34,388 nucleotides of DNA from the IMG/VR virus record IMGVR_UViG_3300043449_000283, positions 1-34,388 of that record; one strand, 5' to 3'. This document shows positions 12,193 through 31,647 of this stretch, piece by piece; the first letter of the stretch is position 1, and each line of letters begins with the position of its first letter. The position numbers were made by a program, and so were the translations under genes. The notes under the pieces were generated by a model. The model was not told the origin of the DNA, did no database searches, and was given only the letters and a program-made list of their open reading frames with translations. Origin of the DNA: a virus.

Positions 12193-12356
12193 GTGCTGGT
12201 CTCCATTCGGGCTTTCAAGCGCTCCAGCATCGTTTTAACAACGAATGCACGGGCTTTGACTTCATTGGGGATTGCATGGCCATAGACTTCTGGGTGGACC
12301 AAGTCATTGACCAAGTCAAGGCAGGCATCTATGGCTGGTGGTAGGTCATTGTTCAC
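12177..12356 (-). CDS. 59-residue hypothetical protein, GTG start
   Basis: Translated by hand on the minus strand: GTG at 12356-12354, stop TAA at 12179-12177. Sequence begins VNNDLPPAIDACLDLVNDLV, then HPEVYGHAIPNEVKARAFVV and a helical end (KTMLERLKARMETSTWPEA). It starts inside the last codons of the methyltransferase gene (11-nt overlap) and ends inside the next gene, exactly filling an otherwise empty gap. All-helical by eye. Function unknown. No ATG alternative gives a frame longer than a few codons. Confidence 0.55.
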   Translation of the reverse strand: MNNDLPPAIDACLDLVNDLVHPEVYGHAIPNEVKARAFVVKTMLERLKARMETSTWPEA

Positions 12357-13155
12357 TTAGGATTCTCCAGGCAGTGGCTGCACAGAGAGGCACTTGGCCG
12401 TTCCCGATTGCCTTAAATCTGTCCACTCGAGCGGCCACCCCATCAACCACTCTTGGAAAGCCGGATTCATATATCCACCAGTCTTTGTTTCCAATGGTTG
12501 CTCTAATTTCGGTTTCCAAGGTTTCATTCTTGGTGGGTTCAATGATGCCTCCAACATTTTCTCTGCCTCCATTTTTGTCAACACTCCCATGTCCACCAGT
12601 TTCCGATACTGCATGATCGATCCCTCGCTGGGCATATGACTCGCAGTTGGTGTCGGAAATGTTATTTGCGAAAATCCAGATTCTGTCCCTTTGGTGTGGT
12701 GCACCAACGTCTGCTGCTCCCAGCACTCCCCATTTCGCATCAAACCCCATTGTGGCCAGGTCTCCAAGAACAACTCCAAGTCCCCTAGAAGTGAGATTTG
12801 GTGAGTTTTCCACAAATACAAACTTGGGTCGTATTTCGTGAATGATCCGCGCCATGTGTTTCCACATTGAGCTTCTTGCCCCTGTAATTCCCTCCCCCCC
12901 CCCCCCTGCGGATGAGATGTCTTGGCAGGGAAACCCTCCCGAAACAACGTCAACAATGCCTCGCCATGGGTGGCCGTCAAAGGTTTGTACGTCATCCCAA
13001 ATCGGGAAAGGCGGGAGAAGGCCGTCATTTTGTCTGGCGCACAATACGCTTGCTGGGTATGGCTCCCACTCGACTGCGCAGACTGTGCGCCATCCGAGAA
13101 GTTTTCCTCCGAGTATTCCTCCACCAGCGCCTGCGAAAAGAGCCAGCTCATTCAT
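12346..13155 (-). CDS. DNA (cytosine-5) methyltransferase
   Basis: 269 residues from the ATG at 13155 (AAGG six bases upstream); the ATG at 13161 would add two. It transfers methyl from SAM to C5 of cytosine in DNA. Numbering from the longer start, motifs are: I, LFAGAGGGILGG (8-19); IV, GGFPCQDIS with catalytic Cys79; VI, VFVENSP (Glu118); VIII, QRDRIWI (157-163); X, RFKAIGNGQVP (248-258). The span between VIII and X is short, so the target-recognition region is small. A run of four glycines after motif IV is encoded by a 13-base G tract. The whole gene overlaps a second same-strand frame. It probably protects phage DNA or alters regulation; its target is unknown. Confidence 0.93.
   Translation of the reverse strand: MNELALFAGAGGGILGGKLLGWRTVCAVEWEPYPASVLCARQNDGLLPPFPIWDDVQTFDGHPWRGIVDVVSGGFPCQDISSAGGGGEGITGARSSMWKHMARIIHEIRPKFVFVENSPNLTSRGLGVVLGDLATMGFDAKWGVLGAADVGAPHQRDRIWIFANNISDTNCESYAQRGIDHAVSETGGHGSVDKNGGRENVGGIIEPTKNETLETEIRATIGNKDWWIYESGFPRVVDGVAARVDRFKAIGNGQVPLCAATAWRILSEQ
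12357..13151 (-). CDS. Overprinted second-frame protein within the methyltransferase gene
   Basis: 264 residues, +1 frame relative to the methyltransferase, spanning nearly its whole length. Its ATG shares ATGA with the stop of the upstream gene (13148-13151), the coupling style used across this genome. Segments I recognise from standalone phage proteins are YDPSLYLWKTHQISLLGDLE with ETWPQWGLMRNGECW (about 108-144), FPTPTAS (165-171) and MNPAFQEWLMGWPLEWTDL (228-246). Proteins with the N-terminus MSWLFSQALVEEYS are familiar to me beside phage cytosine methyltransferases. No enzyme fold is evident; a partner of the methyltransferase is inference. It could still be a long chance frame, because another frame on the opposite strand is also long here. 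Confidence 0.5.
   Translation of the reverse strand: MSWLFSQALVEEYSEENFSDGAQSAQSSGSHTQQAYCAPDKMTAFSRLSRFGMTYKPLTATHGEALLTLFREGFPAKTSHPQGGGGRELQGQEAQCGNTWRGSFTKYDPSLYLWKTHQISLLGDLELFLETWPQWGLMRNGECWEQQTLVHHTKGTESGFSQITFPTPTASHMPSEGSIMQYRKLVDMGVLTKMEAEKMLEASLNPPRMKPWKPKLEQPLETKTGGYMNPAFQEWLMGWPLEWTDLRQSGTAKCLSVQPLPGES
12894..12906. repeat. Homopolymer tract, 13 C (G on the coding strand)
   Basis: Thirteen consecutive C on the plus strand, read as G13 by the leftward genes. It encodes four glycines in each of the two overlapping frames, just after the methyltransferase motif IV. Tracts of this length slip in replication and are hard to sequence. Loss of one G would join the methyltransferase N-terminus to the second-frame C-terminus. 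Gain of one would put the methyltransferase N-terminus into a frame that stops at a TAG about 36 codons on. Confidence 0.95.
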
Positions 13156-13429
13156 CACCATCCTTAAACTTCTCCAGCGCAGTCACCTCAATGTGGTCTA
13201 CCAGGCTTTGCAGAATCATGTGGGCAATGTCCACATCAGTGCCAGCGATGTATGCATTGTTGAGGGTCATGCACTCTTCAATATCAGGCTCATAGGGCGC
13301 ACCATAAGAATCTCTGTAGCCTTTCTCTTCTGGGCTGTATTCTAGGAAGCAGACCAGATCGACATCTTCAATGGCGCAGTCATACTGGAACAAGTCTTTA
13401 GGGCATGGGGGTGTGGGGCCGTAGTTCAT
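13148..13429 (-). CDS. Acidic 93-residue hypothetical protein
   Basis: The start at ATG 13429 is set by a strong GGAGGGG ribosome site (13442-13436) six bases upstream; the frame is open further up but without such a site. The protein is acidic with four cysteines (PCPKD, YDC, LVC, EEC) and two Asp-rich parts (AIEDVDLVCFLEY, GTDVDIAHM). Its stop overlaps the ATG of the second-frame methyltransferase-region protein and lies just past the methyltransferase start. Not recognised. An acidic early protein next to a methyltransferase could be an anti-restriction or DNA-mimic type protein, but nothing in the sequence proves that. Confidence 0.65.
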   Translation of the reverse strand: MNYGPTPPCPKDLFQYDCAIEDVDLVCFLEYSPEEKGYRDSYGAPYEPDIEECMTLNNAYIAGTDVDIAHMILQSLVDHIEVTALEKFKDGDE

Positions 13430-24051: not shown

Positions 24052-24740
24052 TTTGTCCAATTGTCATTGCCACTGTCAGAGGCCACGGGTTGGCCGTGCT
24101 GCTGGAATCGATCAAGCAATACGCGCCAGAGTGTCCGGTTTATCTCAGAGGCCCTGAGTCGGTGCTTGAGAATTTCCAAGCTGACTACAAAATTTATGGC
24201 CAGCCAAGGAACTTTGGCGAGGACTATAACGAGGTGATTGAGGCAGCGCTCAAGGACTGGTCATCATGCATTGTGGCCAATGACGACATCGTGCTGACAC
24301 CCACCAGCGTGAAGGTGCTGATGGAGGATGTGGCCATTGTCAGGACCATGAACAGCTACAAAGCAGGGTGGGTGGCGGCTCGAAGTGATGCGGCAAGGTC
24401 TGGCCAGAATGTGCGCATTTGCCAGCCTGGTGAGCGACTGAGCTTCTACAAATTCCCGTCTGAGGCCCACATCAAATTGGTCCAAGAGGTTAGCCCAATC
24501 TTTGCATGGATATCAAGTGATGCATTTGAAGAGGCAAAGTTTCCCCCTCTGAATTGGTACAGCGATGATGTGCATTGTATGGACTTAATCCAAAAAGGCT
24601 ACGGCCACTATGTCAGCGCAAGCTATGTCCACCACATTGGCAGCAACACCATTGGCATGAATGCCAAGCAGCTGCATGAGGATGCAATGCCATGGCTCAA
24701 AGAGAATCGACCCGAATATGCGAAGGCATGGTTTGATTGA
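24048..24740 (+). CDS. Glycosyltransferase-like protein (GT-A fold)
   Basis: 230 residues. N-terminal strand and loop ICPIVIATVRGHGL with a following helix (AVLLESIKQYA) fit the nucleotide-sugar site of GT-A enzymes. The acidic metal site is likely IVANDDIVLTP (N-D-D in place of D-x-D). WYSDDVHCMDLIQKGYG and VHHIGSNTIG fit the acceptor side. Donor and acceptor are unknown. It sits in the late region, so a virion protein or host surface glycan may be the target. Confidence 0.7.
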   Translation: MICPIVIATVRGHGLAVLLESIKQYAPECPVYLRGPESVLENFQADYKIYGQPRNFGEDYNEVIEAALKDWSSCIVANDDIVLTPTSVKVLMEDVAIVRTMNSYKAGWVAARSDAARSGQNVRICQPGERLSFYKFPSEAHIKLVQEVSPIFAWISSDAFEEAKFPPLNWYSDDVHCMDLIQKGYGHYVSASYVHHIGSNTIGMNAKQLHEDAMPWLKENRPEYAKAWFD

Positions 24741-25326
24741 TGTATTCGCGGTGGCCTATGAGCGCACCAATGAAATGCGGGTGTTTGTCCAGTCTTGGAT
24801 AAATCAGAGCGCAGACAACTGGCGACTTACAGTCATTCACGATGGGCCAAGCACCGAGTTTGAAAAGGCGATGCGGCCACTGGCCAAACAGATGCCAGAG
24901 AAAATCAAGTATTTTTGCACAGAGTCTAGATTTAACGACTACGGGCATTCTTTAAGACAGATTGGGATTGAGCAGGCCACGGGCGATTATTTGCTGCTAA
25001 CCAATGCAGATAATTACTTTATCCCCAGAGCAGTAGAGATTTTGAACGTGGCCACTGGGCAGCCTGATGTCATTTTGTTTGACATGGTGCATTCCCACAA
25101 CCGACCTGGTGGGCGGGATTTGCCAGCTTATTCCTACTTTGAAACAAGTTATAGGCGCAATTCAATTGACATAAGCGCAGCAATTGTGAAGACAGACAAA
25201 GCTAAAAAGGTTGGATTTCGGGACAAAGGCTATGCTGGGGATGCAAGCTATTTTGAAGATATCTTGTTAGATGACCAAGATATTTTGGTGGTAAAACTGC
25301 CGCACATCCTGTTTGTTCACAATTAA
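24733..25326 (+). CDS. Family 2 glycosyltransferase
   Basis: 197 residues from the TTG at 24733 (AAGG six bases before), which puts the first strand (IDVFAVAYERTNEM) at the N-terminus as in GT2 enzymes; ATG 24718 is an alternative. Seen: WRLTVIHDGPS, EQATGDYLLLTNADNYF (N-A-D in the place of D-x-D) and a late DILLDDQD. It overlaps the previous glycosyltransferase gene by 8 nt. The two probably act on the same acceptor. Target inferred, not shown. Confidence 0.78.
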   Translation: MIDVFAVAYERTNEMRVFVQSWINQSADNWRLTVIHDGPSTEFEKAMRPLAKQMPEKIKYFCTESRFNDYGHSLRQIGIEQATGDYLLLTNADNYFIPRAVEILNVATGQPDVILFDMVHSHNRPGGRDLPAYSYFETSYRRNSIDISAAIVKTDKAKKVGFRDKGYAGDASYFEDILLDDQDILVVKLPHILFVHN

Positions 25327-25358
25327 AATTGATCCGAGCCATATATAAGGATTTTTGC

Positions 25359-25874
25359 ATGAGTCACCAACAGCAGCTTATTTTTGTGGCCAGTGTCAAG
25401 GACCAATTTCCAGAATACTTCAGCCAAACCAAAGTTTTGGAAGTTGGCTCTCTGAACATCAATGGCAGCGTAAGGCAGTTTTTTGAGAATCCAGACAAAT
25501 ACATTGGCTGCGACTTGGGCGATGGGCCAGGTGTGGACATTGTGTGCCGAGGCCATGAGCTGCCATACCCAGACGGGATGTTTGATGTGGTGATCTCATG
25601 TGAGTGCTTTGAGCATGACAAGCACTGGGAAAAGACGTTCCAAAAGATGATTGACTTGGTGCGGGATGATGGTCTGGTGATTTTCTCCTGTGCCACAATA
25701 GGCAGACCGGAACATGGCACGAGTAGATCTTTACCAGCTGACGCGCCATTTACCAACGATTACTACCAAAATTTGAGGGAGGAAGATTTCAATGACTTCA
25801 AGCCTCTCTTCAAACAATACAAATTTGGCCAGTGCCTTAGTGCAAAAGACCTATATTTTTGGGGATTGAAATGA
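25359..25874 (+). CDS. SAM-dependent methyltransferase (class I, type 11-like)
   Basis: 171 residues from ATG 25359 (AAGGA about nine bases before). Rossmann signatures: KVLEVGSLNINGSVRQFF (motif I), YIGCDLGDGPGVD (motif II), MFDVVISCECFEHD (post-II, with the common E-C-F-E-H) and VRDDGLVIFSCAT (motif III). Small-molecule or sugar methylation is more likely than DNA methylation, as no DNA-binding part is present. It directly follows two glycosyltransferases, which suggests a methylated glycan. ATGA overlap with the portal gene. Confidence 0.82.
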   Translation: MSHQQQLIFVASVKDQFPEYFSQTKVLEVGSLNINGSVRQFFENPDKYIGCDLGDGPGVDIVCRGHELPYPDGMFDVVISCECFEHDKHWEKTFQKMIDLVRDDGLVIFSCATIGRPEHGTSRSLPADAPFTNDYYQNLREEDFNDFKPLFKQYKFGQCLSAKDLYFWGLK

Positions 25875-29339: not shown

Positions 29340-29673
29340 ATGGCTATTGTTAGCAACACATTCCTGACTTACTCCGCAAAGGGTATTCGGGAAGATTTAA
29401 GCAATGTGATCACAAACATTGCGCCCGAAGAAACCCCTTACATGAGCAACATTGGCCGTGAGAACGTGTCCAACAGCTTATATGAGTGGCAGACCGATAC
29501 ATTGGCCGCAGCTGCTGCCAATGCCCAGTTAGAGGGTGATGACGTTGGTACGTTTGACTCTGTGACTGCTACTGTGCGTTTGCAAAACTACGCACAGATT
29601 TCACGCAAGACAATCATCTTGTCAGCTACTGAAGAAGTGGTGAACAAGGCTGGTCGTCGCAGCGAATTGGCGT
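29340..29673 (+). CDS. Major capsid protein, exon 1
   Basis: GAGGAAATT precedes the ATG. Exon 1 codes 111 residues plus the first base of codon 112: NTFLTYSAKGIREDLSNVIT, IAPEETPYMSNIG and LQNYAQISRKTIILSATEEV, which match DUF5309-type major capsid proteins. Without splicing the frame runs into the intron and stops at 29685-29687 after 115 residues. The predicted 5' splice point follows T29673. Joining to A29994 gives codon TAC and the continuous reading SELAYQIAKRGAEMKRDQE across the junction, which suits the family. Spliced total 320 residues. Confidence 0.88.
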
Positions 29674-29993
29674 TAACTTTGCATTGATAAGCGCCCGTAT
29701 TCGGTAACGAATATTGAAAAACTAGGTGAATTGCTGGAAACCCTTTAGAGCCTGATACACCACAACATAGCCCGAAAGAGCAAGTGTGATGGTCCAAAAA
29801 GAATCAGGATTAGGCAATCAGCAGCCAAGCACCGCATAAGGTGAAGGTTCAACGACTAGGGAGTAATCCCGTAGGACCAAGTGGTCCGAAGTGCCTAGCC
29901 CCAGAGATGGGTGAAGATATAGTCTGATCTTGTATGAGAGTACAAGCCTCGAAAGAGGGTCAGGAAAGTAACGAGTCCTGGCAAACAAAAATG
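29674..29993 (+). ncRNA. Group I self-splicing intron in the capsid gene
   Basis: Core elements in order: P AATTGCTGGAAACCC (29729-29743), Q AATCAGCAGCCAAGC (29816-29830), R GTTCAACGACTAG (29847-29859), S AAGATATAGTCT (29924-29935). P4 pairs GCTG of P with CAGC of Q, a covarying form of the usual GCGG/CCGC. P7 pairs GACTA of R with TAGTC of S. P1 is exon GGCGT with intron GCGCC (29691-29695), giving the required U-G at the splice site; the intron ends in G29993. Extra hairpins between R and S (e.g. GGACCA/TGGTCC) suggest subgroup IA; 3' hairpins include one with a GAAA loop. 320 nt, no endonuclease frame. Confidence 0.95.
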
Positions 29994-30622
29994 ACCAAAT
30001 CGCAAAGCGTGGCGCTGAAATGAAGCGTGATCAAGAATTCTCTATGCTGAATGGCGCAGTGGCCGCAGCTGGTGATTCTACGACTGCTCGCACGACGGCT
30101 TCTTTGGGCGCGTTTGTGAAAACAAACACCGACAAAGGAACTAATGGTGCTGACCCATCCTACACAACATTGCCAAACAATGCCCGTAGTGATGGCACAG
30201 TGCGCACATTTACTGAAACCATTTTGAAAAATGTGATTCAGAAAGTGTGGACAGCTGGTGGTACACCTAAGATTTTGATGTGCGGTCCTGTTAACAAGCA
30301 GCGCGTATCAGGCTTCTCTGGTATCGCTTCCAGCCGCTTCAACATTGATGGAGGCGCAAAGCCTGCCACATTGGTCGGTGCAGTTGACATTTATGTCTCT
30401 GACTTTGGCAATGTGCAAGTGATTGCAAACCGCTTCCAGCGTGAGCGTGATGCATGGGTAATCGATCCTGACTACGCCAAGATGACAGTGCTGCGCCCTT
30501 ACAGCCAAGTCGAATTGGCCAAGACTGGCGATGCTGAAAAGCGTATGCTGATCGCAGAATGGGGTCACAAAGTTACGGCTGAAAATGCCCATGGTCTGGC
30601 AGCAGACCTGATTACTTCCTAA
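29994..30622 (+). CDS. Major capsid protein, exon 2
   Basis: Exon 2 begins ACCAAATCGC; after joining it reads YQIAKRGAEMKRDQEFSMLN. The rest includes GAFVKTNTDKGTNGADPSYT, VWTAGGTPKILMCGP and DIYVSDFGNVQVIANRF with RERDAWVIDPDYAK, the conserved second half of DUF5309-type capsid proteins (HK97-like fold). An internal ATG at 30020 begins an apparent separate gene, but this is an artefact of the intron. Followed by a strong terminator. Confidence 0.88.
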
Positions 30623-30670: not shown

Positions 30671-30988
30671 ATGATTCACAAAAGACTACTCAGCGAAAAC
30701 AGAGATCAAGGCATCAAGCGCTACTGGCATGAAAACCCAGAAACTGGCGATGTGACGATCCAAACAGAACAAGATGTCACAGCGGTGATTGAGGCCAACA
30801 AGGCCATCTATAACGCTGTGGATGAGAAAGCCAACTGGACTGGTGAGTGGCACTTGGTCGCATCCATCCCCGAATCCCTTTATTACAAGATGAAGGCCGA
30901 GGGCAAAATCGATGACCAAGAATATATGAAGCGTTGGCTCAACGACTCCGACAACCAATTTTTTAGAACTAGACCTGGGAAAGTATGA
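30671..30988 (+). CDS. Conserved head-region protein
   Basis: 105 residues. It contains KRYWHENPETGDVTIQTEQD and a helix with NAVDEKANWTGEWHLVASIP, then YYKMKAEGKIDDQEYMKRWL and NDSDNQFFRTRPGKV. This pattern is familiar between capsid and adaptor genes of podophages, where it is unnamed. The ATG directly follows the terminator's T run, with no ribosome site, so it may be read from readthrough transcripts or by unusual initiation. ATGA overlap with the next gene. Confidence 0.7.
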   Translation: MIHKRLLSENRDQGIKRYWHENPETGDVTIQTEQDVTAVIEANKAIYNAVDEKANWTGEWHLVASIPESLYYKMKAEGKIDDQEYMKRWLNDSDNQFFRTRPGKV

Positions 30989-31647
30989 GCAATTACATTG
31001 CAGTTTGCACCCCTGCCCGTGACCAAGTCCACACCAACTATTGCTATTGCATGGTTAACCTTGTGGCTTATCACACACTCAACACCGAAGACGCTATCAG
31101 TCTGAAATTGATGCAAGGCACGATCATCCAAAACCAAAGGGCTGACCTTTGTTTGGATGCCATGAAAGAGGGATGCACCCATATCCTTTTCATTGACAGC
31201 GATATGACCTTTCCACAGGATATGGTGGAAAGACTCTTAAAGCACGACAAAGAGATTGTGGCGGCCAACTGTGCCAAGCGCAGAATGCCGACTGGCCCAA
31301 CTGCCCAGAACTATGATGAGAACGGCAAACGAATTCCTGTCTACACCATGCCAGATTCCACTGGATTGGAAGAGGTGGGAAGCATTGGAACGGGCATAAT
31401 GCTGATCAAGCGAGAGGTGTTTGAGGGTATGTCTGAGCCATGGTTTGATATGCCATGGCAGACCACCAGAGGCTACATGGGTGAAGATGTGTTCTTTTGT
31501 AAGAAAGCTCAAGAGCTAGGCTACAAGGTTTACATCGACCACGATGTCTCTCAAGAGATTGGCCACATTGGCTCTTTTGAGTTTGGCCACCCTCACACTT
31601 GGGTTGTGAAAGAAGAGATGGACAAAGAGGCGAAAAATGGCACTTAG
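30985..31647 (+). CDS. Glycosyltransferase (GT-A fold), third copy
   Basis: 220 residues. THILFIDSDMTFPQDMVERL carries a D-x-D metal motif; VAANCAKRRMP, GSIGTGIMLIKREVFEG and GYMGEDVFFCKKAQELGYKV (the acidic E-D acceptor-side motif) follow GT2-like enzymes of phages. HDVSQEIGHIG ends the fold. It lies between the capsid-region protein and the adaptor, so co-expression with virion genes is likely. Substrate unknown. Confidence 0.8.
   Translation: MSNYIAVCTPARDQVHTNYCYCMVNLVAYHTLNTEDAISLKLMQGTIIQNQRADLCLDAMKEGCTHILFIDSDMTFPQDMVERLLKHDKEIVAANCAKRRMPTGPTAQNYDENGKRIPVYTMPDSTGLEEVGSIGTGIMLIKREVFEGMSEPWFDMPWQTTRGYMGEDVFFCKKAQELGYKVYIDHDVSQEIGHIGSFEFGHPHTWVVKEEMDKEAKNGT

Follow-up and report, generated by a model that had tools for sequence, protein, structure and literature searches.

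Probable self-splicing group I introns at three sites of one phage major capsid gene

The window, as the whole analysed stretch is called here, is a virus record of 34,388 bases (IMG/VR IMGVR_UViG_3300043449_000283, positions 1 to 34,388). At positions 29674-29993, its major capsid gene is very probably (about 94%) interrupted by a complete self-splicing group I intron, splicing being predicted from the anatomy of the insert and from comparison with relatives. The intron itself is of a known type. Its setting is what stands out: one capsid gene, three intron sites, a mosaic occupancy and no internal endonuclease.

The head module of the window consists of the small and large terminase subunits, the portal, the scaffold and then the major capsid gene, which is split into a piece at 29340-29687 and a second reading frame whose end is at 30622. 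Genes resembling a glycosyltransferase and a methyltransferase are also present inside the head and tail module (24661-25874 and 30985-31647). A cmscan search against Rfam returned a single gathering-level RNA match in the window, RF00028 (Intron_gpI) at 29664-29946 on the plus strand, with 80.5 bits (gathering 50, E = 4e-19) over the complete model (1-253). The model stops in P9; P9.1, P9.2 and the terminal G29993 lie beyond it and are backed by relatives. The boundaries given in a preliminary description of this DNA, which had proposed a group I intron here, are confirmed to the base.

Excision of the 320 nt joins U29673 to A29994 (GAA TTG GCG T + AC CAA ATC) and, as that description had also foreseen, leaves the frame intact and yields one uninterrupted protein of 320 amino acids. 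The 5' exon (29340-29673, plus strand) spans codons 1-111 plus the first base of the Tyr112 codon, and the 3' exon covers 29994-30622 on the same strand. The product is an SU10-type major capsid protein: it matches PF17236 (SU10_MCP, DUF5309) over residues 5-317 with 309.6 bits, compared with 102.4 and 179.3 bits for the two halves. An intein, or any in-frame translated insert at 29674-29993, was considered and excluded, since stops occur in all frames and the segment is absent from relatives. The exon frame entering the insert is closed by TGA (29685-29687) and TAA (29688-29690). Relatives with the insert translated as protein, which according to that description would speak against an intron, did not turn up: no frame reads through, and in IMG/VR the 80 capsid proteins nearest to the window's (identity up to 97%) are all uninterrupted at this site, which is filled in other contigs. 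In the annotated phage collection, the best capsid identity is 68%, and the gene is uninterrupted among the matches listed. The nearest capsid relatives in bacterial genomes, many of them in Bradyrhizobium, are 39-50% identical.

Intron-bearing capsid genes were found through portal-based relatives and DNA pattern scans, and their inserts occupy exactly three positions, A, B and C. Site B, the one filled in the window, lies inside codon 112 (ELA-Y-QIA) and harbours introns of 317-320 nt, as well as a 301-nt variant. The other two sites are empty in the window. Site A follows codon 29 (codons 29/30, IAP / EET; between 29426 and 29427, plus strand) and is filled in relatives by a group I intron of 259-260 nt; site C lies inside codon 246 (IY-V-SDF; between 30396 and 30397, plus strand) and is filled in relatives by one of 264-267 nt. 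A preference of the introns for the best-conserved stretches of the protein was considered and rejected, since site C alone clearly falls in such a stretch (joint P = 0.058).

Of the distinct, complete capsid genes (140 in total), 88 carry no intron, 14 have A alone, 15 C and 9 B, six combine A and C, five B and C, one A and B, and two have all three; this set is enriched for carriers, because some genes were fetched by intron patterns. The two genes with three introns at once belong to records L107 and L164. When capsid genes were gathered through portal similarity alone, at least one intron was present in 18 of 64 (A in 9, B in 8, C in 7). Across 49 whole related records, 35 introns were detected in 26 records, and 35/35 are located at the capsid-gene sites. 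The initial description had offered as an alternative that the intron is now fixed. This does not hold, because site B is filled in just 8 of the 64 portal-sample genes, and alleles with and without the intron lie dispersed across the capsid tree.

The covariation in the introns of sites A, B and C indicates that their group I fold is under selection. Base pairing was tested on 38 distinct introns, drawn from all three sites, for 58 pairs belonging to the standard group I structure (2193 cells), P6 being excluded from the count, as its alignment shifts between sites, and P10 being inspected by eye. In total, 98.4% of the cells are paired, and 35 of the 58 pairs show changes on both sides; in controls with the partners slid by 1-3 bases, only 31-47% of the cells are paired. 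The relatives' introns score 74-90 bits with RF00028.

P1 is formed by exon GCGU (29670-29673) and guide GCGC (29691-29694), with U29673.G29691 at the splice site. It is 100% paired (n = 38), and two of its four pairs change on both sides among the sites, the exon-guide pairs being GCGU/GCGC at B, GCCU/GGGC at A and ACGU/GCGU at C. The U.G pair at the 5' splice site is present in 38/38 introns, and the last base is G in the introns of all three sites. The P2 hairpin (29697-29703/29708-29714) has both-side changes in seven of seven pairs. P3 (29722-29726/29894-29898) and P4 both covary: P3 is 100% paired, with both-side changes in two pairs, and four of the six P4 pairs are exchanged between sites B and C (GCUG/CAGC vs. 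CGGU/ACCG). The 5' strands of P4 (29732-29737) and P5 (29742-29745) make up the P element region (29732-29745), and the 3' strands of P5 (29811-29814) and P4 (29818-29823) the Q element. In P5, 88% of the cells are paired, and the pair U29745/U29811 is a U-U mismatch in the window. The P5 loop extension (29746-29810) is specific to site-B introns and contains no ORF. The 5' strand of P7 (R element, 29854-29858) pairs with 29920-29924; P7 and the three core P8 pairs (29900-29902/29909-29911) are invariant and paired in 38/38 introns. The S element (29894-29924) comprises the P3 3' strand, P8 and the P7 3' strand. At the 3' end, P9 (29930-29934/29941-29945), P9.1 (29947-29950/29955-29958) and P9.2 (29960-29965/29976-29981) change on both sides in 12 of 15 pairs. 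The U-G splice pair in P1, the P4 covariation, the P7 pairing and the terminal G, all pointed out previously, were thus verified on the relatives' introns.

Hairpins P7.1 and P7.2 between the P7 5' strand and the P3 3' strand are a mark of subgroup IA. The window's intron possesses this typical domain (P7.1, 29859-29861/29868-29870; P7.2, 29874-29878/29883-29887; both-side changes in six of eight pairs), an assignment that spans IA1, IA2 and IA3 alike. Just ahead of the P1 guide strand, the in-frame TGA TAA (29685-29690) may halt ribosomes before they reach the ribozyme core. The site-A introns all have an in-frame stop ahead of the guide, as do 23 of 25 introns at site B and most of those at site C; such stops are thought to allow the ribozyme to fold without an incoming ribosome (PMC3984707).

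In the proposed reaction, the capsid transcript would be made and the intron would fold, after which a guanosine bound at P7 would attack the phosphate following U29673, held in the U.G pair of P1. The freed 5' exon would then attack after G29993, so that GCG-U and AC-CAA restore the Ala-Tyr-Gln of the capsid protein. It is highly improbable that the intron is instead inactive or an assembly artefact, with the capsid protein made as two polypeptides or absent. The U-U mismatch in the window's P5 could be read in that direction, but the core helices are all intact and covarying, the site is filled with conserved boundaries in many independently assembled contigs, and both exons are under coding constraint and spliced in frame; the assembly of half a capsid protein also seems unlikely. 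Each of 139 capsid genes, of which about 50 bear introns, gives a whole protein when spliced; a single further gene, cut by a contig end, was rejected. A 28-base pattern covering the 5' exon-intron junction was encountered in 11 stretches among 2.9 million viral contigs; all 11 are capsid loci known from the 3'-anchored scan, so these matches are not due to chance.

The introns of the three sites are related to each other, though distantly. In L107, which carries all three, they are 63-68% alike, compared with 57-69% between these and the introns of unrelated phages (the values for Vibrio phage 1.232.O being approximate, as its start was set 65 nt early). As the three differ among themselves about as much as they differ from other phages' introns, separate arrivals are indicated, not recent copies. 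That one intron was recently duplicated inside the gene was therefore rejected. The window's intron would accordingly be one of three related but long-separated introns at three sites across the lineage. Variation was also observed within site B: the introns of L182 (L182:4380-4680, 301 nt) and L203 belong to another lineage, 73-74% identical to the common site-B intron, and their guide is changed to fit a different Ala codon in the exon (in L182, GCC and not GCG).

Presence of the introns follows descent poorly. On the capsid tree, site A requires 19 changes for 23 carriers, site B 15 for 17 and site C 17 for 27, while random placement requires 21.8, 16.3 and 25.1 changes, respectively. For site B, the distribution is indistinguishable from random; presence is thus nearly (B) or partly (A and C) unpredictable from descent. 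The introns resemble each other much more than their host genes do. Identical introns are found in genes that are 8-11% diverged, like the site-B introns of L159 and L160, whose genes are 8.7% apart, and in L119 and L127, with capsid genes 24% apart, the site-B introns differ by 1.6%. Intron and exon distances nevertheless correlate (Mantel r 0.41-0.83), and inheritance is therefore partly vertical.

The exon bases around the sites are also shared. At site C, the flank reads GTC AGT GAY in 27/27 carriers, while this Ser is mostly encoded by TCN in the non-carriers listed, two base changes away from AGT. At site A, carriers have CCT GAA GAA ACG; in most non-carriers, CCC or CCA precedes GAA GAA ACC. 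In a permutation test in which carriers were permuted and ancestry was partly corrected, divergence among carriers is lowered at 9-60 nt from the site, upstream of B (P = 0.003), downstream of C (P = 0.001) and upstream of A (P = 0.018); the flanking bases nearest to the site are, in addition, under constraint from pairing in P1 and P10. The effect is gone at 60-120 nt, except upstream of A. Co-conversion during homing leaves shared exon flanks (PMC3984707), and the silent flanks common to carriers suggest a footprint of gene conversion, from which ancestry and pairing constraints have been only partly removed.

With introns at up to three places, in this gene alone, patchily distributed and lacking an internal homing enzyme, the capsid gene has the appearance of an intron hotspot in the phage lineage. 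As had been noticed for the window's intron, no homing endonuclease is present inside any site A, B or C intron (259-320 nt). A longer, endonuclease-bearing form did not appear in the 5'-anchored scans for B and C, whose loci are those of the 3' scans; site A was scanned from the 3' side. Genes of the HNH_3 type were detected in 5 of the 33 records selected for their introns; among the 48 other related records, most of which were checked to be intronless, 7 have them. None is present in the window. A linked HNH endonuclease as the driver was rejected, given these equal frequencies. GIY-YIG and HNH (PF01844) gave zero matches in the related records.

The DNA data directly display the fold, the precise positions of the sites, their patchy occupancy, the likeness of introns in diverged genes and the sharing of flanks; the driver of the movement is a further step. 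The introns may have spread horizontally by gene conversion that copied some 30-60 exon bases as well, and they would also have been lost. Because no intron carries an endonuclease, the DNA break would be supplied in trans, and the chances that an unlinked endonuclease or a co-infecting phage provides it are about even. Such a trans supply, known as collaborative homing, is our best guess for the driver, with passive recombination as the main rival. According to the latter, the intron is spliced but has spread as a passenger of ordinary homologous recombination, combined with frequent precise loss and without endonuclease-driven homing. This is a serious contender, if below even chances: no endonuclease gene lies within the introns of A (259-260 nt), B (301-320 nt) or C (264-267 nt), none is consistently linked, and the correlation of intron and exon distances also fits. 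However, passive recombination would yield tracts of any length, while the shared flanks fade within about 60-120 bases, depending on the side, at three sites, and the near-random distribution on the tree demands many events. A more elaborate form of the trans-supply reading, in which the capsid gene is a hotspot for three ORF-less introns mobilised in trans, perhaps in phage-phage competition, with intronless alleles being cut and intron-bearing ones immune, is tentative and rather unlikely.

The introns might also have been retained as regulators of capsid expression, for example, by delaying it to late infection or by coupling it to the GTP level or to translation. Their restriction to the gene whose structural product is in greatest demand, with up to three per gene, would suit such a role, as would the stops ahead of the guide, which couple splicing to translation, and a comparable switch has been discussed for Bastillevirinae introns (PMC11878797). 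This is improbable nonetheless, as 46 of the 64 capsid genes of the portal sample are intronless, near neighbours of carriers included, and a general requirement for introns in the capsid gene therefore does not exist.

Most reports of phage introns concern polymerase, terminase or nucleotide-reductase genes, and a homing endonuclease often accompanies them. That capsid genes are rarer hosts, as stated beforehand, is upheld by the literature comparison. The mycobacteriophage LittleE has an intron in its major capsid gene, for which splicing was proven by RT-PCR and N-terminal sequencing (PMC3706429). Like the window's intron, it is of the group I type, with a 5' exon ending in U and an intron ending in G (PMC3706429); in contrast, it measures 819 bp, encodes a LAGLIDADG-like endonuclease and occupies a single site, whereas the introns described here are ORF-less, 259-320 nt long and distributed over three sites. 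A capsid intron is also known in the lactococcal phage Tuc2009, as cited in PMC3706429. Three group I introns within one phage structural gene are known from orf142 of Staphylococcus phage Twort (Landthaler and Shub 1999, as cited in PMC11878797). As far as it is described in that citation, orf142 is a tail-tube gene, unlike the capsid gene of the present lineage of ~35-kb phages, in which internal endonuclease genes are lacking and presence is mosaic.

The Bastillevirinae survey asks why introns in those phages colonise only genes of nucleotide and DNA metabolism (PMC11878797). In Jug phages, short group I introns of about 206 nt are numerous, the endonuclease genes mostly stand alone and splicing has metatranscriptome support (PMC12363816). 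Short group I introns are thus common to Jug phages and the present lineage, but Jug phages have genomes of 360-402 kb and about 18 introns over many genes (PMC12363816), while here only the capsid gene is concerned. In collaborative homing, ORF-less introns are moved by free-standing endonucleases (reviewed in PMC3984707). The introns of this lineage share with those cases the ORF-less group I type, and their signs of mobility and probably co-converted flanks point the same way; a partner endonuclease, however, did not turn up in the related records searched. No report of more than one ORF-less intron restricted to a capsid gene came up in the open-access literature that was searched (subscription papers being outside it).

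Among annotated phages, the top-ranked DNA match of the window's intron is located in Vibrio phage 1.232.O (MG592596.1), with 74.7% identity over 219 nt. The match (L258:1465-1777) lies between the annotated capsid gene and an HNH gene and corresponds to an unannotated, ORF-less group I intron of 313 nt in the major capsid gene (RF00028, 83.1 bits). The annotated capsid protein is truncated by this intron; the joined protein has an unsplit counterpart in other Vibrio phages (96.8%), and 27 records match it at 95-99%, the gene being in one piece in those listed. The Vibrio phage thus resembles the window in having an ORF-less group I intron in its major capsid gene, but its annotated capsid gives no SU10_MCP match, and an HNH_3 gene adjoins directly downstream of the capsid stop.

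Elsewhere in the window, on the minus strand at 12346-13161, an ORF of 264 amino acids (12357-13151 with its stop) is fully contained in an ORF of 271 amino acids for a cytosine methyltransferase, on the same strand and in another frame. The pair is conserved: in MW202462 (Manatee Spring phage), 240 codons are open in both frames, the second frame being 47% identical, and in Acinetobacter phage ABMM1 the doubly open stretch is 298 codons; in each of these two, the second frame begins 4 bases after the methyltransferase start. The inner ORF looks like a conserved overprinted gene, as judged from the reading frames. A literature search for an ORF overprinted in a cytosine methyltransferase gene returned nothing.

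For capsid surveys, the present case implies that genes can be missed or truncated, because intron-split ones are annotated as fragments, as in Vibrio phage 1.232.O. For the biology of these phages, the picture is that of a small-genome lineage in which introns are present only in the gene of the main shell protein and would be gained and lost frequently. The natural series of zero, one, two and three introns in nearly one gene may serve to test the cost of splicing, exon skipping and mobility in trans.
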